Position numbers and translations under genes: made by a program
NCBI GenBank assembly: GCA_001725155.1
Contig: MEFP01000010.1
Span: 1-64,000, forward strand
DNA from: Lysobacteraceae bacterium SCN 69-320
GTDB lineage: Bacteria; Pseudomonadota; Gammaproteobacteria; Xanthomonadales; Rhodanobacteraceae
Direction: 5' to 3'
Length of the DNA: 64,000 nt
Notes under the pieces: generated by a model
What the model saw: the letters and a program-made list of their open reading frames with translations, nothing else
Database searches by the model: none
Told to the model about the DNA's origin: nothing
Shown: piece after piece, positions 22,766 to 53,328 of the stretch
Layout of the letters: every line of letters starts with the position of its first letter
How positions within the stretch are numbered: position 1 is the first letter of the stretch

Positions 22766-23683
22766 ATGAAGCGGGTGCGCAAATGCCAGTACGGGGTGCT
22801 GGCGACGGGCCTGATGGCGGGATCGGCCTGGCAGGCGGCAATGGCCGATCCGCCGCCGTTCGTTTCGCTTGACGATACCAATGTCCGCATGACGCCCGGC
22901 GAACAGCGCGTGCTGCGGCTCTGGGTCCGCCGCAGTGCGTACGTGGAGGTATTCTCGGCTTACGCGCCGGCCGGCGAGTACACGATCAGCGTGCCGACCG
23001 AGCCGGGCTGTGCCGTGCTGGATCCGGCGGCAGGCATATACCGGGTGTTGTTTGATACTTCGGCCGGTGGCGGCGAACTCGAATGCCGTTACACGATCCG
23101 CCGTGAAGCCCATTCGATCAACGATCTGTCGATGGCGCTGGATCCGCTCGGCAACAACGGCATGCCGGTGAGCGGCGGGGTGAGGCTCCGTTTCGGCGCG
23201 GTGCCCTACCTGGCCTTGTCGGTGAGCTACGAGGGCGAGGCGCTGCTGCCCGACGGACGCCTGCAGCGCATGGCCCGCCTGCGCGTGGACAGCGACGGCA
23301 CGCTGCCGCTGAATGGGGCCAGTGCCGGATTCTGTTTTGACAATGCTTTTCCCGGGTTCGTGATGGACGCTAGCGTGGCCGGCGGTTGCGCGCGGGGCAC
23401 GGGCGGGTACTGCTTCTTCTCGGGCTTTGCCTTCGGGCTGCCCACCGTTCCTCCTGGCGGCTCGTCGAGCTGCCTCGTGCAGCTGACTTCGCGCGAGCCT
23501 TACGAGCAGCCGCTGTATTTCCCGCTGTGGCTCATCGACACCTTGCCGCTACGCGATGCCCTGACCGGCGGAAGCGTATTGCGCGTGCCGGGCAGCAGGG
23601 ATCACGCCACGCTGGTGGTTGCGCGAGACCGGGTATTCGACGACGGCTTTGAGCCTGCCGCTGCGGCGACATCGACACGCTGA
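22766..23683 (+). CDS. Secreted protein with C-terminal IFxxGFE-like tail
   Basis: 305 residues. The ATG at 22766 was chosen over the adjacent TTG because AGGGG lies 7 bases upstream. Signal peptide (YGVLATGLMAGSAWQAAMA), then an all-beta extracytoplasmic body with paired cysteines (PGCAVLD/GELECRYT, GFCFDN/GGCARGTGGYCF, SSCLVQL), suggesting disulfides in two Ig-like folds. Near the end it carries RDRVFDDGFEPAAAATSTR. The FDDGFE element recurs at the ends of two unrelated secreted proteins here (41633 and 46942). No family was recognised for the body; function unknown. Confidence 0.75.
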   Translation: MKRVRKCQYGVLATGLMAGSAWQAAMADPPPFVSLDDTNVRMTPGEQRVLRLWVRRSAYVEVFSAYAPAGEYTISVPTEPGCAVLDPAAGIYRVLFDTSAGGGELECRYTIRREAHSINDLSMALDPLGNNGMPVSGGVRLRFGAVPYLALSVSYEGEALLPDGRLQRMARLRVDSDGTLPLNGASAGFCFDNAFPGFVMDASVAGGCARGTGGYCFFSGFAFGLPTVPPGGSSSCLVQLTSREPYEQPLYFPLWLIDTLPLRDALTGGSVLRVPGSRDHATLVVARDRVFDDGFEPAAAATSTR

Positions 23684-40715: not shown

Positions 40716-41633
40716 TCAGCGCATGGTCAGCACGTAGATCGCGACCGTGCCGGTGGACTGCGTCGTGCTGCCGAAGTTGCAGACGCGGACGGCTACGGTG
40801 TCGGCACTGGGCACCTTGAGCGGCTGCACCAGCATGTTCGGCGGCAAGGTGGCGCCGGCCTGCAGATTGAAAATCACGAGATCGCCGGCCTGCGCACCCG
40901 GAATCGACAGGTTGTAGTCGTTGCAGTCGTTGGCACCGACGGTGAACGCGGCCGCGCCGTTGCTGTAGCCGCCGGCGATCTTGCCGCGCGTGACGCTGTC
41001 GCTGGCCAGCTGCGTGGTGCCGACGGCGCCGTTGGCCAGTTCCGTCGCGCCGACGGCGCCGGTGCTGATCTTGCTCGCGGTGATGGCGTTGTCGGCGATC
41101 TTCGAGTTCGTCACCACGCCGGAGTCGAGCTTGGAATTCGTGACCGAAAAGCTCTGCAGCTGGTTGGTGCCGACCGAGCCGTTGGCCAGGGTCGGGTTCG
41201 GATAGGTGCCGGTGAGGCTGCCGCCGGCCGGTCCGCTGATGCTGCCGCTCAGCGAGAACTGCGCGACCGGCGCCGTCGTGACGGCCTGGCGCGGCAGCAG
41301 CGGCGTGCCGCCGATGCTGACCTGCAGATAGCGCTGCGAACCGGTGAACGCGCCCGGGAAGCTCAGCGACACGCTGAACAGGCCGTTGACGACGGGATAG
41401 GCCGGCTGGTTGATCGTACTGCCGATCTGGTTGCCGTTCGTCGCGGCATCGAACAGCGCGAAGCTCAGGTCGAAGTTGCCGTTGGCCGGCGCGCCGTTCT
41501 GGTCGAGACGGCCCTGGTAGACGAAGTCGGGGATCTGCGGGGTCTGCGCGAATGCCGGCGCGGCGGCGGCCAGCAGCATCAGCAGCGCGGCGCCGCGACG
41601 CAGCAGGCGTTGAAAATCGGTGAGCGTTTTCAT
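40716..41633 (-). CDS. Exported fibre/stalk-like protein with parallel-beta repeats
   Basis: 305 residues. Signal peptide (RGAALLMLLAAAAPAFAQ), an N-terminal beta domain (IPDFVYQGRLDQNGAPANGNFDLSFALFDAATNG), then a stretch of short hydrophobic-spaced repeats: GSLTGTYPNPTLANGSVG, VTNSKLDSGVV, NSKIADNAITASKISTGAVG, ATELANGAVGTTQLASDSV. These look like the trimeric stalks of tail-fibre or collagen-associated bacterial proteins. A C-terminal beta cap follows (DLVIFNLQAGATLPPNMLVQP). Its ATG overlaps the stop of the small gene upstream by one base, so both are co-translated; together they probably form a surface or secreted structure. Confidence 0.8.
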   Translation of the reverse strand: MKTLTDFQRLLRRGAALLMLLAAAAPAFAQTPQIPDFVYQGRLDQNGAPANGNFDLSFALFDAATNGNQIGSTINQPAYPVVNGLFSVSLSFPGAFTGSQRYLQVSIGGTPLLPRQAVTTAPVAQFSLSGSISGPAGGSLTGTYPNPTLANGSVGTNQLQSFSVTNSKLDSGVVTNSKIADNAITASKISTGAVGATELANGAVGTTQLASDSVTRGKIAGGYSNGAAAFTVGANDCNDYNLSIPGAQAGDLVIFNLQAGATLPPNMLVQPLKVPSADTVAVRVCNFGSTTQSTGTVAIYVLTMR

Positions 41634-41941
41634 CAGTTGCATCCCTCGAAGCCGCTGTTGAAGATGGCGTCGCGCGCCGTTTCGCCGGCGCCGGCCCAGA
41701 AGCCGGCGCTCAGCGCGTAGCTGCCGCCGCCGGCATGGCCGACCGCCGGCTCGCCGATCGCGCCCTGCAGCACGCGGCAGCCGCCCGGCGAGACCAGCCG
41801 GCCGCCGCCGCTGACGATGACCTGACCGCGCAGCACGGTCTGGCCGGGCGCGTCGGCCGCGGCCATGGCGGCCAGCACGAGAAACAGCAGGGCGCGTCGC
41901 AGCGGACGCGGCGAAGACGGATGGAGTGCGGCGATACGCAT
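41633..41941 (-). CDS. Small secreted protein ending in an IFNSGFE tail
   Basis: 102 residues. The start MRIAALHPSS was chosen because GGGAG lies 7 bases upstream. Signal peptide RRALLFLVLAAMAAADAPGQ. The short mature part is TVLRGQVIVSGGGRLVSPGGCRVLQGAIGEPAVGHAGGGSYALSAGFW-like: a beta hairpin motif common at the start of Xanthomonadales secreted proteins (GEPVVG...SYALSAGFWAG). It closes with DAIFNSGFEGCN, the GFE-type tail also seen at 23627 and 49219. Translationally coupled to the fibre-like protein (1-base overlap). Confidence 0.8.
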   Translation of the reverse strand: MRIAALHPSSPRPLRRALLFLVLAAMAAADAPGQTVLRGQVIVSGGGRLVSPGGCRVLQGAIGEPAVGHAGGGSYALSAGFWAGAGETARDAIFNSGFEGCN

Positions 41942-42101
41942 CGCGAAGCTCCCAGGCGGCAACATCGTCGTATTCAACGTCGCGCGCCGGCGACACCGAA
42001 CACGGCGCGCCGCCGCGGCGGACTCGGCGGTGGCGCCACGCCTTGCACGGGTTGCGCGGCCGCGCATAGGGTGGACGCCCGCGCTGTCTGACGGAACTGT
42101 C

Positions 42102-42521
42102 ATGTCCGAGCCCAAGACCCGCCCGACCGGCACCACCGTGCAGACCTTCCTGTCCGGCGTGACCGATCCGGCGCGGCGCGCCGACTGCGTCGCCGTCGCC
42201 GAGCTCATGCAGCAGGTCACCGGCGAGGCGGCCGTGATCTGGGGCAGCAGCATCGCCGGCTTCGGCGTCTGCCGGTATCGCTACGGGAACGGTCGCGAGG
42301 CCGACTGGCCGCTGATCGGCTTCGCCGCGCGCAAGAACGGCCTGACCCTGTATTGCGTGTTCGGCTTCGACGGCAGCGACGCGCTGCTGGCCCGGCTTGG
42401 CAAGCACAGGACCGGCAAGGGCTGTCTCTATCTCAGATCCCTGGCCGACGCGGACCGCACCGTACTGGCGGATCTGCTCCGGCGCAGCGTCGCAGCCCGC
42501 GAGCCGCAGCGCGTGCGCTGA
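42102..42521 (+). CDS. DUF1801 family protein
   Basis: 139 residues. TGTTVQTFLSGVTDPARRADCVAVAELMQQVTGE, MLWGSSIAGFG-like text (VIWGSSIAGFGVCRYRY) and ADWPLIGFAARKNGLTLYCVFGF, TGKGCLYLRSLADADRTVLADLLRRSV match the DUF1801 (YdhG-like) fold. The role is not established; the family occurs in many bacteria and may bind small molecules. The gene is single. Confidence 0.9.
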   Translation: MSEPKTRPTGTTVQTFLSGVTDPARRADCVAVAELMQQVTGEAAVIWGSSIAGFGVCRYRYGNGREADWPLIGFAARKNGLTLYCVFGFDGSDALLARLGKHRTGKGCLYLRSLADADRTVLADLLRRSVAAREPQRVR

Positions 42522-42577
42522 TCAGGCGGCGCTCGGGCCGGTCCCGGCGGCGCGTCGTCGCGGACCGGATCGCGCCG

Positions 42578-43765
42578 TCACGGCGACGGCGGCGAGGCCG
42601 GCCGCAGCTCGCCGCTGACCAGCTGCAGCCGCGCGGCAAGCGTCTGCTCCACGGCAGTCGTCTGCGGCTCGCCGCTGTCCGGACTGCCGCCTTCGCGCCC
42701 GATGTCGTAGCGCATGCTCAGCGCGATGCTGACGCCGTCCTTGTCGGGCTTCCAGACGGCCTGGCCAAGTTCGCCGCCGAGCGCTTGATCCGGCTCCGGG
42801 AAACTCAGGCTGGCGACCTGGTAGCGCGTATGTCCGCCGGTGCCCGTGGCGATCGGACGCAGCACGTAGACGACGAGGCCGGCCGCGTCGGTGCGGCCTA
42901 TCGCGAGCATGGCCAGGCTGCCGTCGGCCAGGGTCTGGCGCTGCACGACTTCCTCGATCACGCCGGAATCGGAGAACAGCAGGCGGCGTATCGCTTCGGG
43001 ATCGCCGGGGGCACCGTCGACTTCCTCGACCGAGGTCGCGCTGTCGCCGCGTGCCGCCTGGTTCGCGTCCGCACCGCCGCTGATCGCGGCCGGATCCAGC
43101 GCTTCGGTCGAACCCTGCGGGTCCAGCGCAATGTGGCCGTCGTCGTCGATGCGGAAGGCGGCGCGATAGTCGGGGCCGCTGGCGGTTTCGCGTCCGCCGA
43201 CTTCCAGGATCGTGAACTGCAGCGGACTGCGCAGATCGACGTCGCGCCGGTACATCACGCCTTCGACGCCGACCAGCATCTGGTCGCTGAGTCTGCCGTG
43301 CGCGTCGCTCGTGAAGATCAGGTCGTAGCGGCTGCCTTCCATCGCCAGGCCCGTGTCGATGCGCAGCAGCCAGGTCGTCGCCGCCGCGCCCTGGGCGACG
43401 CGCAGCAACTGCACGCGGTCGTGATCGACATTGGTCCAGCGCAGGTCAGCGTCTTCGCCGTGGGCGGCCTGTATCGGGGCATAGGCCGCGTCGTAGCGTT
43501 GCGGCGAGGCGAAGCGCGTCTGGCCCCAGACGTCGGCGATGCAGCGCAGGCCGGCCGCGTCCAGCGGCGTCGCGGCGAAGTCCTGCGCATACAGCGAGGC
43601 GGCCGGTGTGGTCAGTGGTGTGACCGGCAGGCTGGCCAGGCAGTTGCCGGCGGCGGGCGCGGCGGGCGCGGCGGGCGGCGTCGCGGCCGGGCCCGGCGGT
43701 GGCGCGCCGCTGCAGGCGGCGAGCAGCAGCGGCAGCGAGAGCACACGCGGAAGACGAGACGGCAT
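42578..43765 (-). CDS. Large lipoprotein, unknown function
   Basis: 395 residues. Lipobox LLAACSG after MPSRLPRVLSLPLLLAA; GGGAG upstream of the ATG. A Pro/Ala linker (GPAATPPAAPAAPAA) leads to an all-beta domain: YAQDFAATPLDAAGLRCIADVWGQTRFASP, LLRIDTGLAMEGSRYDLIFTSDAHGRLSDQML, RRDVDLRSPLQFTILEVG, HIALDPQGSTEALDPAAI. No family recognised. It is probably anchored to the outer membrane facing the periplasm. It converges on the DUF1801 gene, with 56 bases between. Confidence 0.72.
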   Translation of the reverse strand: MPSRLPRVLSLPLLLAACSGAPPPGPAATPPAAPAAPAAGNCLASLPVTPLTTPAASLYAQDFAATPLDAAGLRCIADVWGQTRFASPQRYDAAYAPIQAAHGEDADLRWTNVDHDRVQLLRVAQGAAATTWLLRIDTGLAMEGSRYDLIFTSDAHGRLSDQMLVGVEGVMYRRDVDLRSPLQFTILEVGGRETASGPDYRAAFRIDDDGHIALDPQGSTEALDPAAISGGADANQAARGDSATSVEEVDGAPGDPEAIRRLLFSDSGVIEEVVQRQTLADGSLAMLAIGRTDAAGLVVYVLRPIATGTGGHTRYQVASLSFPEPDQALGGELGQAVWKPDKDGVSIALSMRYDIGREGGSPDSGEPQTTAVEQTLAARLQLVSGELRPASPPSP

Positions 43766-43913
43766 CGACAACTCCCTGTTGGCGGCTGTGCCGGTCGGGC
43801 GCAGTCCACTAGCCCGCAGCTTAGCCTGAGCTGAAGCCGCGCCGGCGTGAACCCGGTCGTCCTGGGCTACGCTACGCGCCCTCGCGCCTTGGGCGCACGA
43901 TTGCCGGGATGCC

Positions 43914-44960
43914 GTGGACGACGCTGCCGTACAGGCCCTGTTCCTGCCGTTTGTCGACGGCACGCTCGCGCCGCCGGCGCGACTGCTCTGGCTGCGCGCG
44001 CGCGACGGCCAGGGACTGCAACAGTTCCGCTCGCTGTTTCCGGCCAGCACCATCGTCGCCGAGCAGAGCTTCCGTCCGTTTGCCGATGCGTTGCCGGCCT
44101 GGCTGGACGTCAGTGCCGCCGCGACGGGACGCTTCGAGGCCGTGCTGCTGTTGCCGCCGCGCCAGCGCGACGAGGCGCGCGCCTTGCTCGCGCGCGCGCT
44201 GGATCAGGTCGTCGAGGGCGGCCTCGTCGTGGCCAGCGTCGCGAACAACGAAGGCGCGCGCGCGATCCAGAGCGACCTGGCCCGCCTGGCCGGCGAGCCG
44301 GCCGTGCTGTCCAAGCACAAATGCCGCGTGTTCTGGCTGCGTGCCGATGCCGCGCGCCGCGATGCGGCGCTCGTGCAGCAGTGGGCGGCCATCGACGTGC
44401 CGCGCGCGATCGCCGACGGCCGTTTCCTGAGCCGGCCCGGCCTGTTCGCCTGGGATCGCATCGACACGGCGTCGGCGCTGCTCGCCGCGCACCTGCCCGA
44501 GGATCTGGCCGGTGCCGGCGCGGATCTCGGCGCCGGCTACGGCTTTCTGGCCGATGCGGTGCTGCGCCGCTGCGCGCAGGTGACTGCGCTGGATCTGTAC
44601 GAGGCCGAAGCGCGCGCGCTGGCGCTGGCGCAGCGCAATCTCGCCGCGACCGCAGCGGTGCGTGCGGCCCCCGTGGCGCTGGGCTATCACTGGCACGACG
44701 TCGTGCGCGGCCTGCCGCGGCGCTACGATTTCATCGTGATGAATCCGCCGTTCCATCAGGGCCGCGCCGACCGGCCCGAGCTCGGCCGCGGTTTCATCCG
44801 CGCCGCGGCGCAGGCGCTGACGGCGACCGGCCGCCTGCTGCTCGTCGCGAACCGCCATCTGGCCTACGAGGAGGAACTGCAGCGGCATTTCACGCAGACG
44901 CGCGTGCTCGCCGACGCGCAGGGCTTCAAGGTGATACAGGCTCAGGGGACGCGCGCATGA
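43914..44960 (+). CDS. RsmC/RlmG-like 23S/16S rRNA (guanine-N2) methyltransferase
   Basis: 348 residues with a GTG start. Two-domain layout of RsmC/RlmG: an N-terminal degenerate methyltransferase-like half (LLPPRQRDEARALLARALDQVVEGGLVVASVANNEG) and a C-terminal SAM-binding half with GADLGAGYGFLADAVLRR, LDLYEAEARALALAQRNLA, and the guanine-binding NPPF motif (DFIVMNPPFHQG). It methylates N2 of a ribosomal guanine. Which site cannot be settled from sequence alone. Its stop overlaps the ATG of the pseudouridine synthase, so two rRNA-modification enzymes are co-translated. Confidence 0.88.
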   Translation: MDDAAVQALFLPFVDGTLAPPARLLWLRARDGQGLQQFRSLFPASTIVAEQSFRPFADALPAWLDVSAAATGRFEAVLLLPPRQRDEARALLARALDQVVEGGLVVASVANNEGARAIQSDLARLAGEPAVLSKHKCRVFWLRADAARRDAALVQQWAAIDVPRAIADGRFLSRPGLFAWDRIDTASALLAAHLPEDLAGAGADLGAGYGFLADAVLRRCAQVTALDLYEAEARALALAQRNLAATAAVRAAPVALGYHWHDVVRGLPRRYDFIVMNPPFHQGRADRPELGRGFIRAAAQALTATGRLLLVANRHLAYEEELQRHFTQTRVLADAQGFKVIQAQGTRA

Positions 44961-45661
44961 AGCTGCTGCGCTATATCGCCAATCTCGGTTACGGCAGCCG
45001 GCGCGACGTCACCGCACTGTTCCGCGACGGCCGCATCGGCGACGCGCACGGCAACGTGCTCGACGAGGATGCGCGCATCGCGCCGGCCGACGTGCGCATT
45101 GACGGCGAGGTGCTGGACCCGCCGCCGGGCCTGGTCGTGCTGCTGCACAAGCCAGTCGGCTATACCTGCTCGACCAAGGACCCGGGGCGGCTGATCTACG
45201 ACCTGTTGCCGCGGCGCTTCCGCTATCGCGATCCGCTGCTGTCGCCGGTGGGCCGTCTCGACCGCGACACCTCGGGCCTGCTGCTGCTGACCGACGACGG
45301 CGGCCTGCTGCACCGGATCATTTCGCCGAAGGCGCGCATCGCCAAGCATTACGAAGCCGAACTGGCACAGGATCTGCGCGGCGACGAAGCCGCACTGTTC
45401 GCCGGCGGCACCCTGCTGCTGGAATCGGAAAAGACCCCGCTGCTGCCGGCGCAGCTTGCCGTGCTCGCGCCGCGCCGCGTGCGGTTGACCCTGCACGAGG
45501 GCCGCTATCACCAGGTGCGACGCATGTTCGCCGCGACCGGCAACCACGTGACGGCGCTGCATCGCGCCCAGGTGGGCGCATTGACCCTGGACGGCGTGGC
45601 GGCCGGCGAATGGCGCGCGCTGGACGCGTCCGACCTGCAGCGCGTGTTCGCTGCGGACTGA
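44957..45661 (+). CDS. rsuA: RsuA-type 16S rRNA pseudouridine synthase
   Basis: 234 residues, overlapping the previous stop by 4 bases (ATGA). An N-terminal S4-like domain (LLRYIANLGYGSRRDVTALFRDGRI) is followed by the RsuA/RluB/E/F catalytic domain: LVVLLHKPVGYTCSTKD, GRLDRDTSGLLLLTDDG with the catalytic Asp (in RLDRDTSG), HYEAELAQDL and LHEGRYHQVRRMFAATGNHV. The length (234) and S4 region fit RsuA, which makes pseudouridine 516 in 16S rRNA. RluE is the main alternative. Confidence 0.87.
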   Translation: MKLLRYIANLGYGSRRDVTALFRDGRIGDAHGNVLDEDARIAPADVRIDGEVLDPPPGLVVLLHKPVGYTCSTKDPGRLIYDLLPRRFRYRDPLLSPVGRLDRDTSGLLLLTDDGGLLHRIISPKARIAKHYEAELAQDLRGDEAALFAGGTLLLESEKTPLLPAQLAVLAPRRVRLTLHEGRYHQVRRMFAATGNHVTALHRAQVGALTLDGVAAGEWRALDASDLQRVFAAD

Positions 45662-45721
45662 GGTTTCGCCGCATCCGCACGGACCGCTCGCGGCATTGCG
45701 GCGCGGCCGCGCGAAGGAGGC

Positions 45722-46651
45722 TCAGCCCGCCGTTTCGCCGGCAACGCGCGAATCGGTCACGACCCGACGCGCGAGCCGCGCCTCGCGATGCGCGATGTAG
45801 ATGTTGCTGCCGACGATGATCGCGGCGCCGACGCCGGTCCAGAGATCGAGCTTCTCGGCGAACAGGAAATAGCCGAACACGATGACGACGGGCAGCTGCA
45901 GGAAGCTCAGCGGCGTCAGCGCCGACACCTCGCCGAGCTTGAGCGCGCGCGTCCACAGCAGGTGCGCGATCGTGCCGAAGCCGCCGGCCAGAACGACCCA
46001 GAGCCAGATCCAGCCCTGCGGCCATTGCCAGACCGGCAGCGCGCCGGGCAGCGACAGCAGCACCCAGAGCCCGGTCGTGATCAGCACGATCGCGTCGGGG
46101 TGCTCGGTGCGCGAGAGGTATTTGATGCTGATCGCGACGGTGCCGCTCATGGCCGCGGCGAGCAGGGCGATCAGGCTGGCGCCGCTGAAGTCGGCCGCAC
46201 CGGGACGCACGATCACGACGACGCCGATGAAGCCGAGCAATACCGCGGTCCAGCGTCGCAGCCGCACGACTTCACCGAGGAACATGACTGCGCCTATGGT
46301 CACGAACAGCGGCGTCGCATAGGACAGCGAGATGGCCTGGGCCAGCGGCAGATGCACGACCGCCCAGAAGCCGGCGAACATCGAGACGATGCCGATGCAG
46401 CAGCGCAGCACGTAGAAGCGCCATTTGTCCGTGCGCAGCAGGCCTGGTCCGTGGCGCAGCAGCAGCGGCAGCGCGAACACGAAGCCGAACAGGCTGCGGA
46501 AGAACGCGATCTCGAACGCATGCAACTGCTCGGACGCGAGACGGATGGTCACCGTCATGAAGCCGAACAGCACGGCACTGGCCGTCATCAGCAGCGCGGC
46601 CCTGATCAGCGTGGAGGAAGCGGCAGGCGCCGCTTCGGCTGTAGCGTTCAC
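45722..46651 (-). CDS. EamA/DMT-superfamily transporter
   Basis: 309 residues, GTG start. Ten predicted membrane helices in two EamA repeats: LLMTASAVLFGFMTVTIRLA, FFRSLFGFVFALPLLL, CIGIVSMFAGFWAVVHLPLAQAISLSYATPLFVTIGAVMFLGE, LLGFIGVVVIVRPG; then LIALLAAAMSGTVAISIKYLSRTE and SALTPLSFLQLPVVIVFGYFLFAEKLDLWTGVGAAIIVGSNIYI. Typical S-adenosylmethionine/amino-acid or metabolite exporter of the RhaT/YddG class. Inner membrane; substrate unknown. Confidence 0.92.
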   Translation of the reverse strand: MNATAEAAPAASSTLIRAALLMTASAVLFGFMTVTIRLASEQLHAFEIAFFRSLFGFVFALPLLLRHGPGLLRTDKWRFYVLRCCIGIVSMFAGFWAVVHLPLAQAISLSYATPLFVTIGAVMFLGEVVRLRRWTAVLLGFIGVVVIVRPGAADFSGASLIALLAAAMSGTVAISIKYLSRTEHPDAIVLITTGLWVLLSLPGALPVWQWPQGWIWLWVVLAGGFGTIAHLLWTRALKLGEVSALTPLSFLQLPVVIVFGYFLFAEKLDLWTGVGAAIIVGSNIYIAHREARLARRVVTDSRVAGETAG

Positions 46652-46941
46652 GGCAATACCGCGGTCAGACGAAGCGCCTAGCCTAGCGCCGGCCGCGGCA
46701 GTGGCGACAGGGCCAAAGGTGGGGGGCAGGCGAGGGCCAAGCGGCGCGGCGTCTCCGCAGCGGCGGCCGCGGCCGGGGTCGCGCGAATTTTCGCGGTTGC
46801 CGCGCGATGCGGGCCGGGCGGCGCGTCCGATCGGGAGGGAATCTCCCCTCGGTCGTGCGACGGAATCAGGTCTTGCGGCAGCCGCAGCGCGGTCCGTCTC
46901 GGTTACGATGCGGCTCGCCATCGGGATCATCGGGGGACGTC

Positions 46942-49248
46942 ATGAAAACGCTATCGGTAGTGGGGGCCAGCAGTCTGTTCGCCATCGTCCTCGGCCTGTC
47001 GGCGGGCGCATCGGCGGGGCGCGGCGACGATGCAAAGGCGCAAGCGTCCGCCGCCGATCGGGTCGCGGCCGAGAACGCCTCAGCCGCCGAAGAAGAAGTC
47101 GAAGGCGACATGGAACCGGTGGACCCGGCCGAGCAGCGTCCGCAGAAGATGCCGCCGCCGCGGCCGTCCAGCCGCGCCGCCACGGCCGACACCTGGGTCG
47201 CGCTCGGACCGTCGCCGACCCAGTCGGCGCAGGTCGCGGTGCCGCCGGACAACGAAGTCACCGGCGCGATCCACGCGATCGCCGCGCATCCGAGCAATGC
47301 CAGCATCCTGTACATCGGCGCGGTCAACGGCGGCATCTGGAAGACCACCGACGCGACCGCGGCGCGGCCGACCTGGACGCCGCAGACCGACAACCTGCCG
47401 TCACAGTCGATCGGCGCGATCGCGTTCGATCCGACCGACGCGACCAACCAGACCCTGATTGCCGGCATCGGCCGCTTCAGCAACTTCGCCCAGCGCGGCG
47501 ACGACGAGCTCGGCGTCTACCGCACGACCAACGGCGGCGCGAGCTGGACCCTGCACGGCGGCTCGACCCTGCTCGGCCAGAAGATCATCGCGGTCGCCGC
47601 GCGCGGCGCGACCCTGTTCGCGGCCTCGACGACCGGCGGCCTGTACCGCAGCACGAACACCGGCGCGAGCTTCGCGCTGGCCTCGGGCACCGGCGGCCTG
47701 CCGACCGGCGGCATCTTCGATCTCGTCGGCAATCGCGCCAACGTCAATCAGCTCTACGTCGCCGTGCGCGGCAGCGCGCCGAAGGTGCTGCGCAGCGACG
47801 ACGGCGGCGCGACCTGGAACGACGTGACCGCCGGCATCGCGAACCTCAGCAGCGCGACCGGCGCGATACGCCTCGCGGTCGGCCCGTCCAACGTGGTGTA
47901 CGCGGCCATCGTCAACAGCAACATCATTGCCGGCGTCGTGCGCTCGACCAATCTCGGCGCGACCTGGACCGCGATGGACGTGCCGGCCATCCATCCGGGT
48001 GCGCAGGGCAACGTCAACACCTCGATCGCGGCCGATCCGTCCAACGCCAACCTCGTCTATCTCGGCGGCGACCGCATCACCGCCAGTCCGTTCACCGGCA
48101 ACACCGTGCGTGGCGATGCCTCGCTCGCCGCCGGCAGCCAGTTCGCGATCATCCACGGCAGCGGCGCCGGCGGCACCTCGCCGCATGCGGACAGCCGTGC
48201 GATGGCCTTCGACGCCAACGGCAACCTGCTCGAATCCGACGACGGCGGCATCTACCGGCGCAGCACGCCGGCCACGACCGGCACCTGGTCGTCGGTGATC
48301 GGCAATCTCGCGGTGACCGAAGTGCATGACCTGGACCATGACAAGGTCACCAACGTCATCATGATCGGCACGCAGGACAACGGCACGCACATGCAGCAGG
48401 CCGCGGCCAATCCGCGCTGGACCATGATCAACGGCGGCGACGGCGGCGACGCGGCCATCGACGACGACACGCTCGGCATTGCCGGCAGCTATCGCTACAT
48501 CAGTTCGCAGAACAGCGGCGGCTTCCGTCGCGCGCAGTACAACGCGGCGAATGCCTTCGTCAGCAACCTGAGCCTGCCGACGATCGGCGATCCGCAGTTC
48601 GTCACGCCGCTGGAACTGAACGTGACGACGCCGACGCGCCTGCTGATCGGCGGCACGAACGCGATCTACGAGTCGACCAACATCACCACCGGAACACCGA
48701 CCTTCACCTCGCTCGGCACGCCCGGCGCGAACCGCAACGCGATGGCCTACGGCGCGGCCGACAATCCCGATGCGGCCTATGTCGGCAAGAACGCCGCGGT
48801 ATTCCGCCGCCAGGGGGCGTCCTTCGTCGCGACGACGGCCCTGCCGTCCGGCGCGGCCGCGGTCACCGACGTGGCGATGGACCCGAACAATTCGCAGCGC
48901 GTGTTCGCGATCGACGACAACCAGGTGTTCCGCTCGACCGACGGCGGTACGACCTGGCAGGACGTGACCGGCAATCTCGGCACGATCAGTGCGCAGGATT
49001 TCCGCACGATCGAGTACATCCCGAGCGCGTTCGGCGACGGCGTCGCCCTCGGCACGCGTTCGGGCGTCTACTACGCAGCGGTCAATTCCAGCAGCTGGAG
49101 CCTGCTCGGCAGCGGCCTGCCCGACGTGCTCGTGTTCGACCTGCGCTATATCGCGGCCTCCGGCCAGCTGATCGCCGGTACCCTGGGCCGCGGCGTCTGG
49201 CGGCTCAACGTCGTTACCGACCGCATCTTCGCGAACGGATTCCAGTAA
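46942..49248 (+). CDS. Secreted BNR/Asp-box beta-propeller protein with GFQ tail
   Basis: 768 residues, GGGGG just upstream. Signal peptide (SLFAIVLGLSAGASA), an acidic linker, then repeated propeller blades each carrying an Asp-box (TTNGGASWTLHGG, SDDGGATWNDVT, STDGGTTWQDVT) and the lead-in IHAIAAHPSNASILYIGAVNGGIWKTTD. This is the sortilin/VPS10-like and bacterial sialidase-fold BNR architecture without a recognisable catalytic site. The chain ends LNVVTDRIFANGFQ, the third member of the IFxxGF-tailed set in this window. Extracellular, probably a binding or scaffold protein. Confidence 0.88.
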   Translation: MKTLSVVGASSLFAIVLGLSAGASAGRGDDAKAQASAADRVAAENASAAEEEVEGDMEPVDPAEQRPQKMPPPRPSSRAATADTWVALGPSPTQSAQVAVPPDNEVTGAIHAIAAHPSNASILYIGAVNGGIWKTTDATAARPTWTPQTDNLPSQSIGAIAFDPTDATNQTLIAGIGRFSNFAQRGDDELGVYRTTNGGASWTLHGGSTLLGQKIIAVAARGATLFAASTTGGLYRSTNTGASFALASGTGGLPTGGIFDLVGNRANVNQLYVAVRGSAPKVLRSDDGGATWNDVTAGIANLSSATGAIRLAVGPSNVVYAAIVNSNIIAGVVRSTNLGATWTAMDVPAIHPGAQGNVNTSIAADPSNANLVYLGGDRITASPFTGNTVRGDASLAAGSQFAIIHGSGAGGTSPHADSRAMAFDANGNLLESDDGGIYRRSTPATTGTWSSVIGNLAVTEVHDLDHDKVTNVIMIGTQDNGTHMQQAAANPRWTMINGGDGGDAAIDDDTLGIAGSYRYISSQNSGGFRRAQYNAANAFVSNLSLPTIGDPQFVTPLELNVTTPTRLLIGGTNAIYESTNITTGTPTFTSLGTPGANRNAMAYGAADNPDAAYVGKNAAVFRRQGASFVATTALPSGAAAVTDVAMDPNNSQRVFAIDDNQVFRSTDGGTTWQDVTGNLGTISAQDFRTIEYIPSAFGDGVALGTRSGVYYAAVNSSSWSLLGSGLPDVLVFDLRYIAASGQLIAGTLGRGVWRLNVVTDRIFANGFQ

Positions 49249-49979: not shown

Positions 49980-52778
49980 CTAAGGCGACTCCGGCAGCAG
50001 GCGCCGAAATGCCGAATCGGCCGGATAGGCGCTTTCGAGCCGTGTGCGGAATTCGCGTTCGAGCGCCTGCGCCTGCTGGGTGTCGCCCGCAGCGCGCAGC
50101 GCGCGTGCATAAGCCAGGGCGTAGCGCGCGGTACGCGGATGCCGCGCGCCGCGGTCGCTCCGGGTGAGCTCGTAGGCCGATTGCTCCTGTTTCAGCGCAG
50201 CGGTGAAGTCGCCGCGTGCGCGCAGGACCGCCGCGCGTACGGTGGCGGCGCGTGCATGCAGTTCCGCTTCCACGCGATTGCCGACGGCATCGACCTGATC
50301 CAGGAGCGCCGCCGCCTGCGCGTGTTCGCCGTGATCTGCCAGCCAATGCGCCAGCGGCAGACGCGCATAGGCCAGGTCGAGCGAGTCCGCATCGGCTGAG
50401 CTGCGGGTGGCGATGACCGAATCCAGCAGCGAGCGCGCCTCCGTGTCGGCACGGCCGGTCTCCATCAACGCCATGGCCAATGCCACACGAAACACCTGCA
50501 GGCGGTCGTTGTCGCGGCCGTCGACGGCGTCCTCGTGGATCTCCAGCGCCTCGCGCAGCAGTTTCGCTGCGGCATCGAACTCGCCGAGCGCATATCGCAG
50601 CCAGCCTGCATTGAATACGGCCAGCGCGTACTGGGTGCTCTGCGCGCCGTTGCGGCGCAGGATCACCGGAGTTCCCGCAGCCAACGCCGCCGCCGCCTCG
50701 TCGAACAGGCCGTGTTCGGCGAGTTTCTCGCTGAAGAAGACGAGGTCCATCGCCAGTGCTGTGCTGTCCTCGCCGAAGAGTTCCCGCGTCAGTGCGATGC
50801 GTTCGCGCAGGACTGCCAGCCCCCGCTCGGAATTCCCGCTGTAGAGCAGCGTGACGCCGAATTGCTTGAGGGTCACCCGGTAATCGTCACTGTGCTTCGC
50901 GCCGGCGTCGGCGTACAGCGCCAGCGCCCGCTCGCAGAAGCGCAGTGCCCGCGCGTACTCGCCGCTGTTGGAGGCGATGGCGCAAAGATCGAACAGGCTC
51001 TGGGCAATCGCCAGCGGGCTGGCGCCGCCGGCCTCACGCAGTGCCAGCGCCTGCTGTGCAGCACCGTCGGCCCGACTCTGCTTTCCGCCGGCTGCCAGCG
51101 CCTGCGCCAGCGTTCCATAGGCGTCGGCGAGCACGAGGCTGTCGCCGGCCGCATGCCCGGTGATGAGATCGAAGGCCCGTTGTGCGGCCCGCTCGGCTTC
51201 ATCGGTGGAGCCGCGTACGGCAAGAACGCCGATCGCCTTCGCCCGCAGGCTGCGCGCAGCCGCAAGGGGATCGGCCACCGACGGATCGAGGTACAGCTGC
51301 GCGGCCGTCTCGAGCAGCGGTGCGCCGGCCGTGCCTTCGTTGATGCCGCGGTAGGCATTGCCCAGCGCTTCGAGCAGGCGCGCACGCATGCGCGGCTGCC
51401 CGGCGAGTTCCTCGTCCACGCGGTCGCGGCCGCGGTCGAGCACTTCGCGGGCGCTGAAATCGTGCCGCCCGGCGCGAGTGGGATCGGACAAGGTGAAGGC
51501 TGAAATCAGGAACGACGTGGTGCGCTCGGCCAGCTGGGCCTGCAGCCGCGCCTCGCGCTCGGCCTGCACGGTGCGCCAAGTGAATCCGGCAACGATGGCG
51601 AGCAGTGCCGCGCCGGCGGCCAGCGGCCAGCGGTTGCGCTGCACGAAACGCTGCATGGGGTAGATCCGTTGCCCGCGTCTGGCCTGAACCGGGCGCGCGG
51701 CGAGAAAGCATTCCAGGTCCTGCGCGAATTCGCGCAGCGAGGCATAGCGCTGTACGGGCTCGCGCCGCAGGGCCTTCAGCACGATCGCGTCGATGTCTGC
51801 CGGAATGCGGTACGGTCGGAGGCGTTCTGCGACGGCCGCGGCGATGCGCGGACTTTGCCGGCTCGGCGGCAGGACGCTGCCGGACAGGATCGCGTTGGCG
51901 AGCGCATGGCCCGCGGCGCCGGGTTCGAACGGGCGCACGCCGGCGACGAGTTCGTACAGCACGACGCCGAGCGACCACACATCGGTCGCGGTACCCAGCA
52001 GCGCCCCCTCGATCTGCTCGGGACTGGCGTAGGCGAGCGTCATCGCCCGGGGCGCCTGCGTGACCGTAGTGTCGGCGCCGACGAGGCGCGCAATGCCGAA
52101 ATCGAGCAGTTTGGGCTCTCCCGCCGCATCGACCAGAATGTTGGCGGGCTTCAGGTCGCGATGGATGATCAGGCGTTCGTGCGCGTAGGACACCGCCGCG
52201 CAGATCTTCAGGAACAGGCTGATGCGCGCGCGCAGATCGAGTCCGCGCGCGTCGCACCAGTGGTCGAGGCGCTCGCCCTCGACATACTCCATTGCCAGAA
52301 ACGGATCGCCGTCGGCATCCGTGCCGGCATCGACGAGGCGCGCGATATTGGGATGGCTGAGCGTGGCCAGGATGCGCTGTTCGTCCCGGAAGCGGGTTTG
52401 CTGCGCCACCGAGTCCGCGCGCAAGCGTTTCAGTGCGACGCGCTGGCGAACGCCGCCGACCTGCCGCTCGGCCAGCCAGACCACGCCCATGCCGCCTTCG
52501 CCAAGGGGTTCGATCAGGCGATAGCGGCCCGGCGCGGCGGCGTCGACATGCAGATTCGCCGAAAGTTCGACGGCTACCGCCGCGATGGCGGGTGGGATTT
52601 CGTCGGGCGAGGTATCCGTGGCCGCTGCAATGAGCCATTCCACCTCGCGCCGCAGCTGTGCGTCATCGCCGCATAGTTGTTCGAGACCGGCGTTGCGTGT
52701 TTCAGGCGGAAGATCCAGCAGCGCATGGACGATCGACTGTGCGTGTCCGTAAAGCGCGCCGGACGCATCCTCAGGCAT
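49980..52778 (-). CDS. Membrane Ser/Thr protein kinase with TPR-rich C-terminus
   Basis: 932 residues starting MPEDASGALY, overlapping the sigma factor stop by 8 bases. Complete Hanks-type kinase: glycine loop GEGGMGVV (93-100), ATP-binding Lys117 (VALKRL), HRDLKPAN (206-213), DFG (227-229), SPEQ (252-255) and DVWSLGVVLYE. A single membrane helix near 384-401 is followed by about 530 residues of helical repeats (TPR-like: ALGNAYRGIN, LAQALAAGG, RLPLAHWLADHGEHAQAAALLDQVD). The kinase faces the cytoplasm and the TPR part lies across the membrane. Linkage to an ECF sigma factor lacking an anti-sigma gene fits known systems where the kinase activates its sigma by phosphorylation (Xanthomonas PknS/EcfK). 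Confidence 0.92.
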   Translation of the reverse strand: MPEDASGALYGHAQSIVHALLDLPPETRNAGLEQLCGDDAQLRREVEWLIAAATDTSPDEIPPAIAAVAVELSANLHVDAAAPGRYRLIEPLGEGGMGVVWLAERQVGGVRQRVALKRLRADSVAQQTRFRDEQRILATLSHPNIARLVDAGTDADGDPFLAMEYVEGERLDHWCDARGLDLRARISLFLKICAAVSYAHERLIIHRDLKPANILVDAAGEPKLLDFGIARLVGADTTVTQAPRAMTLAYASPEQIEGALLGTATDVWSLGVVLYELVAGVRPFEPGAAGHALANAILSGSVLPPSRQSPRIAAAVAERLRPYRIPADIDAIVLKALRREPVQRYASLREFAQDLECFLAARPVQARRGQRIYPMQRFVQRNRWPLAAGAALLAIVAGFTWRTVQAEREARLQAQLAERTTSFLISAFTLSDPTRAGRHDFSAREVLDRGRDRVDEELAGQPRMRARLLEALGNAYRGINEGTAGAPLLETAAQLYLDPSVADPLAAARSLRAKAIGVLAVRGSTDEAERAAQRAFDLITGHAAGDSLVLADAYGTLAQALAAGGKQSRADGAAQQALALREAGGASPLAIAQSLFDLCAIASNSGEYARALRFCERALALYADAGAKHSDDYRVTLKQFGVTLLYSGNSERGLAVLRERIALTRELFGEDSTALAMDLVFFSEKLAEHGLFDEAAAALAAGTPVILRRNGAQSTQYALAVFNAGWLRYALGEFDAAAKLLREALEIHEDAVDGRDNDRLQVFRVALAMALMETGRADTEARSLLDSVIATRSSADADSLDLAYARLPLAHWLADHGEHAQAAALLDQVDAVGNRVEAELHARAATVRAAVLRARGDFTAALKQEQSAYELTRSDRGARHPRTARYALAYARALRAAGDTQQAQALEREFRTRLESAYPADSAFRRLLPESP

Positions 52779-53328
52779 CGGCCAGCTCGCGCTGCAGCCA
52801 TGCGCGCGCCATGCGCCAGTCGCGTACGACGGTCGGTCTCGCGACATCGAGAAGGTCGGCGATTTCGTCGAGTTCCAGGCCGGCGAAAAACTTGAGATCG
52901 ACGACGCGTGCCTGGCGCGGGCTGATCCGGGCGAGGCGCCTGAGCGCATCGTCCAGACCGATCAGGTCTGCTTCGGCTTCCGGCAGATCTATTTCCTCGA
53001 TCATGACGCGCACGTCCGAGGTCGGTCGTTTGGCCGCCGTGCGGCGGCGCGCGTGATCGACCAGCACGCGCCGCATCATCTGTGCGGCGACGCCGAGGAG
53101 TTGCGCGCGATTGGACGCATCGAAACTGTGTTGCCCGATCACGCGCAGGCAGGCTTCGTTGACCAGCGCGGTGGTCTGCAGCGTATGGTCGTCGCGTTCG
53201 GCGCGCATGGCCCCCGCAGCCAGCGCCTTGAGCTCCGCGTACAGCAGCGGTGACAGCCGTTCGCCGGAACTCGCCGGTGCGAGCGCATCGCAGGCATCGT
53301 CGGCGTCTGGATCTGAAGGAAGTGGCAT
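52771..53328 (-). CDS. ECF-type RNA polymerase sigma factor (kinase-linked group)
   Basis: 185 residues from MPLPSDPDAD. Region 2 (LYAELKALAAGAMRAERDDHTLQTTALVNEACLRVIGQ ... RAQLLGVAAQMMRRVLVDHARRRTAAKR) and region 4 (RLARISPRQARVVDLKFFAGLELDEIADLLDVARPTVVRDWRMARAWLQREL). The LQTTALVNEA and MRRVLVDHARRRxAxKR segments are those of the Xanthomonadales-rich ECF group that neighbours Ser/Thr kinases. No anti-sigma gene is adjacent. Overlap with the kinase start (ATGCCTGA) indicates coupled translation in a fixed ratio. Confidence 0.92.
   Translation of the reverse strand: MPLPSDPDADDACDALAPASSGERLSPLLYAELKALAAGAMRAERDDHTLQTTALVNEACLRVIGQHSFDASNRAQLLGVAAQMMRRVLVDHARRRTAAKRPTSDVRVMIEEIDLPEAEADLIGLDDALRRLARISPRQARVVDLKFFAGLELDEIADLLDVARPTVVRDWRMARAWLQRELADA

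Follow-up and report, generated by a model that had tools for sequence, protein, structure and literature searches.

Three secreted proteins with unrelated bodies are encoded in the 64,000-nucleotide stretch of contig MEFP01000010.1 from Lysobacteraceae bacterium SCN 69-320 (the whole stretch analyzed here, hereafter the window), and all three end or nearly end in the same short element, raising the question of what this shared tail does. The preliminary description had reported the three tails on proteins with signal peptides, and all three were found where it had placed them, with signal-peptide-like N-termini in each protein (by a hydrophobicity rule, or by inspection for the 22766..23683 protein). 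The proteins and their tails are the following:

22766..23683, + strand: tailed secreted protein of 305 aa with a signal peptide and no assigned family (corrected start 22766)
23627..23653, + strand: its tail, DRVFDDGFE, followed by nine residues and the stop
41633..41941, − strand: tailed small secreted protein of 102 aa
41636..41671, − strand: its tail, DAIFNSGFE followed by GCN, ending the gene
46942..49248, + strand: tailed secreted BNR/sortilin-type beta-propeller protein of 768 aa with an N-terminal signal peptide
49219..49245, + strand: its tail, DRIFANGFQ, the final nine residues with nothing beyond

A Pfam scan of the part of the 305-aa protein from 23132 onward gave no match. The tail is also at the end of the homologues of the 102-aa protein in L207 and L197.

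Across the six frames of the window, the pattern [IVLM]FxxGF[EQDN] matches only these three tails. The DNA pattern [IVL]FxxGF[E/Q/D/H] has 57 matches in the whole genome, compared to two for the reversed pattern, and the tail is therefore present beyond chance. Among these matches, 44 are located 0 to 16 residues before a stop (43 tabulated rows and the L031 protein, whose tail forms its exact end) and the remaining 13 are internal or in chance frames; at the protein level, 44 predicted proteins carry [DE]x[IV]FxxGF[QED] at or near their C-terminus. The stricter motif [DE]x[IVL]FxxGF[EQD] retrieved 42 tails at most 20 residues from the stop and none when reversed. Since the 27-base sequences coding these 42 tails include 41 distinct ones, a copied DNA insert or DNA insertion element was rejected as the source of the tail.

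The 44 carriers exhibit a wide range of bodies, including proteases, nucleases, beta-propellers, beta-helices and small proteins, and with a mean column identity of 8% and many Pfam families these bodies are unrelated. A signal peptide is predicted in 43 of the 44 (called by the hydrophobicity rule or by inspection rather than by SignalP); one carrier, a DUF1501 protein, is Tat-like, and the tail is found on Sec-type and Tat-type proteins alike. The recurrence of the tail on unrelated secreted bodies, as claimed initially, is thus corroborated: it is neither confined to one homologous body family nor equally present in cytoplasmic proteins. The view that no named system covers it also stands, as none of the 25 NCBIfam families listed, out of 63, for the 44 proteins names the tail (E-values up to 1, many entries being probably under curated cut-offs). 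In the 40 carriers scanned against Pfam (all but L067, L053, L061:3994-4425 and L069:5128-6273), no best-scoring stretch extends into the tail, and literature searches did not retrieve any description of it among the papers listed.

In all 44 tails, the motif is followed by 0 to 16 residues without any hydrophobic stretch. The membrane helix and the basic terminal cluster are both absent, in agreement with the preliminary description, which had set the tail apart from PEP-CTERM- and LPXTG-like anchors. The tail is C-terminal as a rule, sometimes in tandem and rarely at the mature N-terminus, just after the signal peptide; a variant ending in GME is rare (2 of 43 genomes). Together, the lack of helix and basic end, the doubled copies and the copies after the signal peptide suggest, from the sequences, that the tail is a tag for docking and not an anchor that is cleaved.

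The tag is near-restricted to one order, in which it reaches up to 143 matches per genome (Marinicella, Dokdonella, Tahibacter), whereas 389 genomes of the same phylum outside this order have 0 to 2 matches each. The preliminary description had mentioned similar tails in Rhodanobacteraceae, but a trait of this family is not supported: many families of the order have the tag, and it is absent from most sampled genera of the window's own family. Genomes with a single match were not retained as tag bearers: in G032, G061 and G111, the match is DLVFVGGFQHPPN, in a protein that we take to be a glycosyltransferase, and in G024 it is internal.

Two type II secretion systems (T2SSs) have to be distinguished in these genomes. 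T2SS-A is an Xcp/Out-like system (gspC-gspD-gspE(-gspF)) whose GspC has a PDZ domain, whereas T2SS-B, the Xps-like system beside which it is found, has a GspC that shows none. Among the scanned proteins, the T2SSC domain and PDZ were found in all six GspC-A (PDZ above the Pfam cut-off in four and below it in L265 and L276) and PDZ in none of four GspC-B. The best solved-structure match of GspC-A is OutC (6hcg); GspD-A of the window's genome matches the secretin 5wln over residues 2-592 (390 bits), while the best match of its GspD-B scores 140.5 bits. By its predicted domains (a GspC with T2SSC and PDZ, a full-length GspD secretin), T2SS-A fits the Xcp/Out/Eps-like class.

With genomes carrying five or more tags considered as tag-rich and the partner scored by presence of the T2SS-A secretin, this secretin was found in 74 of 80 tag-rich genomes compared to 34 of 171 others, so that the tag does co-occur with a machine. 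Within the window's own family, the figures are 25 of 27 tag-rich versus 0 of 90 tag-poor genomes, six of the latter having a diverged relative. The split is maintained within one genus (G075, G088 and G100 versus G008, G032 and G061) and, in family f2, G195 alone has both tags and a canonical T2SS-A. When mapped on a tree built from 57 T2SS-B secretins, the tag and T2SS-A undergo four changes each, and three of these fall on branches shared by both (crude chance of this coincidence, 7e-5). The tag was therefore gained and lost together with T2SS-A. Any T2SS as partner was rejected, since the Xps-like T2SS-B occurs both with and without tags.

The correspondence has exceptions in both directions. 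Among the six tag-rich genomes missing the T2SS-A secretin, five are drafts with T2SS-A-bearing congeners and the sixth, G172, is a real exception, with at least five C-terminal tags and neither T2SS-A secretin nor GspE detected. Tail-like ends in GME are retained in G166 and G200, which are devoid of T2SS-A. Conversely, T2SS-A is present in all 26 sampled genomes of family f10, but 14 of them have only 0 to 1 pattern matches and nine have 2 to 4; T2SS-A with 0 to 1 match also occurs in f7 (G122, G132) and in G140, G188 and G224. In the T2SS-A genome G195, L311 encodes a cargo-like homologue without tag.

Based on the co-occurrence with T2SS-A and on the branch changes shared on the T2SS-B tree, we propose that the tail is, on balance, probably a portable linear targeting tag for T2SS-A cargo. 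Sec or Tat would first take carriers across the inner membrane, and the tag would then direct them to T2SS-A, whose export across the outer membrane would need it. GspC, through its PDZ domain, and/or GspD, through its N-domains, would probably bind the tag as a flexible, exposed peptide, in a manner similar to loop 3 of PelI in Dickeya. A stronger form is advanced only tentatively: a true linear T2SS signal, i.e., a nine-residue peptide, usually C-terminal, that would be read directly by the GspC PDZ and/or GspD N-domains of one T2SS subclass and would suffice to export almost any folded periplasmic protein.

Known systems resemble the tail only in part. The C-terminal domains of type IX secretion in Bacteroidota also address many bodies to an outer-membrane machine, but they are folded domains of about 80 residues serving an unrelated machine, whereas the tail is a nine-residue peptide. 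With the tripartite sorting signals (LPXTG, PEP-CTERM, GlyGly-CTERM, MYXO-CTERM), it shares the C-terminal position on many unrelated exported proteins but not the membrane helix and basic cluster. GlyGly-CTERM and the tail have body families in common, ExeM and M36 among them. Like the tail, GlyGly-CTERM is a many-to-one tag found by phylogenetic profiling, but with a tripartite structure and an intramembrane protease, rhombosortase, as partner; its authors did not find it linked to a T2SS subclass (PMC3237569). The nine-residue loop 3 of the pectate lyase PelI is described as a T2SS (Out) signal that contacts GspC and GspD (PMC7949064): it is short, flexible and exposed, as proposed for the tail, but it is one loop of one fold that needs other loops too, whereas the tail is one linear motif ending many unrelated folds. 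In Vibrio cholerae, the PDZ domain of EpsC selects VesB, so that there also a PDZ-bearing GspC decides which cargo is exported; however, a folded Ig domain carries the signal there, and VesB alone is fully dependent on this PDZ (PMC12369372). The Xps T2SS of Xanthomonas resembles T2SS-B: clade B includes the Xanthomonas-like (f2) secretins and is found with and without tags, and XpsC is described as devoid of a PDZ fold (PMC11981180).

The joint loss fits a secretion signal and a later-acting tag on the same cargo alike and cannot tell them apart. The chief alternative, to which we give a minor but real share of probability, is accordingly a surface-retention or matrix-docking tag: bodies would exit through T2SS-A by virtue of their fold, the tag would then bind a cell-surface partner, and loss of T2SS-A would make cargo and tag useless. 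This would account for the co-loss equally well and also for T2SS-A without tags in f10; several of the 44 carriers fall into families whose names refer to other anchors (choice-of-anchor Q, n = 6; J, n = 2; D, n = 1), and tandem copies would suit avidity. However, the tag was lost exactly with T2SS-A on three branches although T2SS-B and the cell surface persist. It is unlikely that the true partner is a different gene that disappeared from the same lineages, with T2SS-A as a mere fellow traveller: G172, tagged with T2SS-A undetected, and a correlation resting on few losses would be in line with this, but three losses coincide, only proteins destined for the periplasm or for sites beyond it carry tags, and T2SS-A offers a plausible mechanism.

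A role of the tail as a structural cap seems scarcely credible; such a cap would be a strand that completes the fold of each body and that derives from the opening strand of a jelly-roll domain. L243 does carry IFADGFETGDTSAWT at the apparent start of a domain that we take to be a jelly-roll, but one and the same tag is found behind beta-propellers, beta-helices, proteases and small proteins, and in a weak predicted model of the 768-aa window protein (mean pLDDT 50.8) residues 757-768 have no secondary structure; the prediction for the 102-aa protein (mean pLDDT 45.8) was useless. A processing signal, with the tail cut by a soluble or outer-membrane protease, is quite improbable: a C-terminal, many-to-one tag is reminiscent of GlyGly-CTERM with rhombosortase (PMC3237569), but the tail has no helix or basic end and cutting makes little sense for tandem copies or for copies right after the signal peptide. 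Thus, of the roles initially envisaged, a type II-like secretion signal is plausible given the co-occurrence with T2SS-A, whereas a processing protease or transpeptidase is disfavored by the tandem and N-terminal copies and by the partner found being a T2SS.

How T2SSs choose their cargo is an old question that is still open. A review regards linear secretion signals as excluded for T2SSs (PMC9251779), and a 2025 paper points out that a universal linear signal is lacking (PMC12369372). The present results suggest that the tag serves as a simple address label, although this machine is believed not to read any. The linear-signal reading, if true, would contradict the view that T2SSs use no linear signal, and a tag acting as the address label of T2SS-A would make the question of cargo choice directly testable. 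It might also provide a simple tag to export folded proteins in laboratory strains and, if true, would make T2SS cargo readable from sequence across much of a bacterial order.

Only three sequences match [IVLM]FxxGF[EQDN] in the six frames of the window, and they are the three tails that the preliminary description had reported at protein ends; the tail also lacks a membrane helix and a basic end, as had been claimed. The third gene starts at position 22766, and its product has a signal peptide. Across the own assembly, which comprises 30 contigs and 5.71 Mb, the DNA pattern gave 57 matches versus 2 for a reversed control, and the surroundings of all 57, including the three window genes, were inspected. 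Forty-four matches lie 0–16 residues before a stop (with zero residues after the motif in 18 of them), the remaining 13 being internal or in chance frames. In the 43 tails counted (L031 was left out), the first position is D (n = 36) or E (n = 4), the core shows I (n = 40), F (n = 43), N/D/S (n = 38), G (n = 43) and F (n = 43), and the last position is Q (n = 22), E (n = 16) or D (n = 5). A stricter motif found 42 tails versus none when reversed. The DNA encoding these 42 tails comprises 41 different sequences whose synonymous codons vary, which points to maintenance by selection on the protein rather than to copying of DNA.

Signal peptides are predicted in 43 of the 44 tailed proteins by a hydrophobicity rule or inspection, not SignalP (by recognition of the start on inspection only for L034, L040 and the third window gene). 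The sole carrier devoid of one, L067, is an endonuclease I relative that keeps the tail and has no N-terminal part; it looks like a decayed gene. The DUF1501 protein L043 starts with MFDRRDFLK, which resembles the consensus of twin-arginine signals. Pfam searches of 40 of the 44 proteins found at least one family (threshold 0.001) in 27 and none in 13. Among these families are Peptidase_S8, Reprolysin, Endonuclease_1, Exo_endo_phos, Glyco_hydro_44, GSDH, Kelch, PD40, DUF5122, Beta_helix, Sortilin/BNR, InhA-like MAM and PKD, along with a number of Ig folds. NCBIfam models (all 44 proteins, E up to 1) added choice-of-anchor Q (n = 6), J (n = 2) and D (n = 1), ExeM/NucH, and rhombosortase- and myxosortase-dependent M36 families, whose names suggest that relatives of several tailed bodies bear other sorting tails elsewhere. 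A serine/threonine kinase-like protein, recognized by eye, is encoded near the tailed BNR gene (window 49980-52949, minus strand), and a similar one lies near the T2SS-A of genome G149 (L277:14147-16990).

The tail is kept across families on DUF1501 proteins (L043 and L079; by eye also L371 and L381) and on endonuclease I (L045; by eye also L098). Tags occur in tandem at five loci (L236, L237, L238, L239 and L241) and in 2 of the 129 tails of named loci. The motif is found at the mature N-terminus, directly after the signal peptide, in L234 (G139:C13, with a presumably DUF1800-like body), L243 (G126:C70) and L368 (G172:C11, the same locus as L088). In L033, L046 and L063, which are long proteins encoded by the own genome, it lies internally, 145–207 residues from the end. 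Judging from these sequences, such a position-tolerant, repeatable, helix-free and non-basic-ended element looks like a docking peptide. L243 (G126:C70:17300-20500) also contains the tag-like IFADGFETGDTSAWT at the apparent start of a jelly-roll-like domain; the tag may be derived from, or mimic, such a strand. The structure models of the 102-aa and 768-aa window proteins are both weak. In the better one (768 aa), the tail at residues 757-768 has pLDDT <50 and no secondary structure, as would a free tail, although other parts of the model behave likewise.

The tag was then counted with the pattern GAYNNNRTNTTYNNNRRYGGNTTYSAN, as raw matches that include some background. Among 117 genomes of the own family, 27 have 13–143 matches, seven have one and 83 have none; of the four single matches read, three are in a glycosyltransferase (G032, G061 and G111) and one is internal (G024). 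Matches occur in 90 of 160 genomes of the order. In a phylum sample of 398 genomes (nine belonging to the order), 28 of the 389 outside the order have 1–2 matches, never more. Exact-end GFE tails were found in at least 118 stretches of named records, and the matches listed include Marinicella marina, M. litoralis, M. pacifica, M. meishanensis, Tahibacter soli, Dokdonella fugitiva, Pseudofulvimonas gallinarii, a Rudaea bin and numerous bins that are unnamed or assigned to Lysobacterales, with a few labelled Alcanivoracaceae, Pseudomonadales and one Bacillota (labels as recorded). From these labels, we infer that the order is Lysobacterales (synonym Xanthomonadales).

GspD secretins were searched in 60 chosen genomes, 31 tag-bearing and 29 tag-poor. 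All exceed the family cut-off except G117, which has a PilQ-like match only, and in the own family the best scores separate tagged from tag-poor genomes. Two deep clades emerge in a tree of 60 secretins: clade A (30 rows from tagged genomes and four from untagged ones, i.e., three of family f10 plus the long-branched G025) and clade B (26 rows, including Xanthomonas-like f2 genomes, tagged and untagged alike). The clade-A secretin of the own genome is:

G000:C3:169512-171293, outside the window: T2SS-A secretin (GspD-A)

It matches XcpQ (5WLN; identified as such in PMC11981180) over its whole length with 390 bits, and the best solved-structure match of the own GspD-B reaches 140.5 bits. Two T2SS-A loci read rhlB, gspC, gspD, gspE, an unrelated transporter gene, gspF, ftsE, ftsX (L251) and gspC-D-E-F-ftsE-ftsX (L277), genes being named by recognition except for GspC (Pfam) and GspD. 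A PDZ match was found in six of six GspC-A proteins, including one of f10 (four above the Pfam cut-off, L265 and L276 below), and in none of the four GspC-B proteins scanned with Pfam, three of which have sub-threshold T2SSC matches only. This agrees with the published XpsC, which lacks a PDZ fold (PMC11981180).

The 160 order and 117 family genomes (251 distinct) were then searched with a profile of clade A (A2). T2SS-A was called at ≥700 bits, and six matches that are partial or lie at a contig edge were counted as well (G065, G163, G214, G217, G225 and G245, with GspE-A confirmed in G065, G217 and G245 only). The secretin is present in 74 of 80 genomes with at least five tags, 15 of 17 with 2–4 and 19 of 154 with 0–1 (Fisher p 1.6e-29, relatedness being ignored); 15 more of the latter have diverged relatives (400–700 bits). 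By genus, 25 have both, 41 neither, nine T2SS-A only and one tags only. In the own family, T2SS-A occurs in 25 of 27 tag-rich and none of 90 tag-poor genomes (six with diverged relatives). The only tagged f2 genome sampled, G195, has a canonical T2SS-A and C-terminal tags (6/6 checked). Eight further f2 genomes carry diverged relatives and are untagged (a single match in G191). G025 and five other genomes of genus g25 have a diverged T2SS-A-like secretin (606–642 bits) and no tags, the only other secretin-family match of G025 being PilQ-like. G134 (genus g41 of the otherwise tag-rich family f9) has neither tag matches nor a match to the T2SS-A secretin, and nothing GspE-like at 1e-60.

The two characters also change together. 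When 57 T2SS-B secretins in a FastTree phylogeny serve as a species-tree proxy (INDEPENDENCE; two extra G010 copies excluded), the tag and T2SS-A show four changes each, counts forced by the starred branches. Three changes coincide by branch (f2 minus G195; a 12-genome f1 clade; G008/G032/G061 within a tagged genus); the fourth does not, because f10 retains T2SS-A with few tags. At least three coincidences have a chance of 7e-5 under random placement on 111 branches, a crude model applied to genomes picked with tag counts known. We infer that these changes are losses rather than gains.

The pairing is imperfect. T2SS-A is present in all 26 f10 genomes, yet 14 have 0–1 tag matches and nine have 2–4, and G122, G132, G140, G188 and G224 also combine T2SS-A with 0–1 matches. 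Conversely, six tag-rich genomes lack the T2SS-A secretin, and GspE-A was not found in them either; five are drafts (77–96% complete, 150–830 contigs) for which the sample includes A-bearing congeners. The true exception is G172 (97% complete, 130 contigs): it has five or more C-terminal tags and no T2SS-A detected, and its congeners likewise lack a canonical one. G166 and G200, devoid of T2SS-A, have proteins ending in GME; ends such as IFRSGME and IILKHGME (L309 in G166; G200:C45 and L310 in G200), with M for F, sit on homologues of DUF1501 proteins and on others. DUF1501 homologues were compared in 60 genomes, most of them tag-poor: of the 30 read among 44 matches listed, 28 lack the tail and two have the GME variant, many being distant paralogues and L313 having a broken frame. 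The tail is absent from L311, a DUF1501 homologue of the tagged G195.

Among the matches listed from the libraries searched, no model corresponds to the tail, and no description of it was found among the papers listed in the literature searches. C-terminal address labels as such are already known. Known C-terminal sorting signals have a tripartite architecture that the tail lacks, and it differs from known T2SS signals in being linear, common and portable. In the mechanism that we propose, the cargo would cross into the periplasm through Sec or Tat and fold there, the exposed tag would be bound by T2SS-A, and the protein would be handed on to the secretin. Binding at the GspC PDZ and/or the GspD N-domains is a guess, made because the EpsC PDZ selects VesB (PMC12369372) and PelI touches GspC and GspD through its loop 3 (PMC7949064). 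The chief alternative is that the tag acts after secretion, on T2SS-A cargo; co-loss with T2SS-A fits such a role and an export signal alike. If the tag is read directly by T2SS-A, the system would stand further from anything known.
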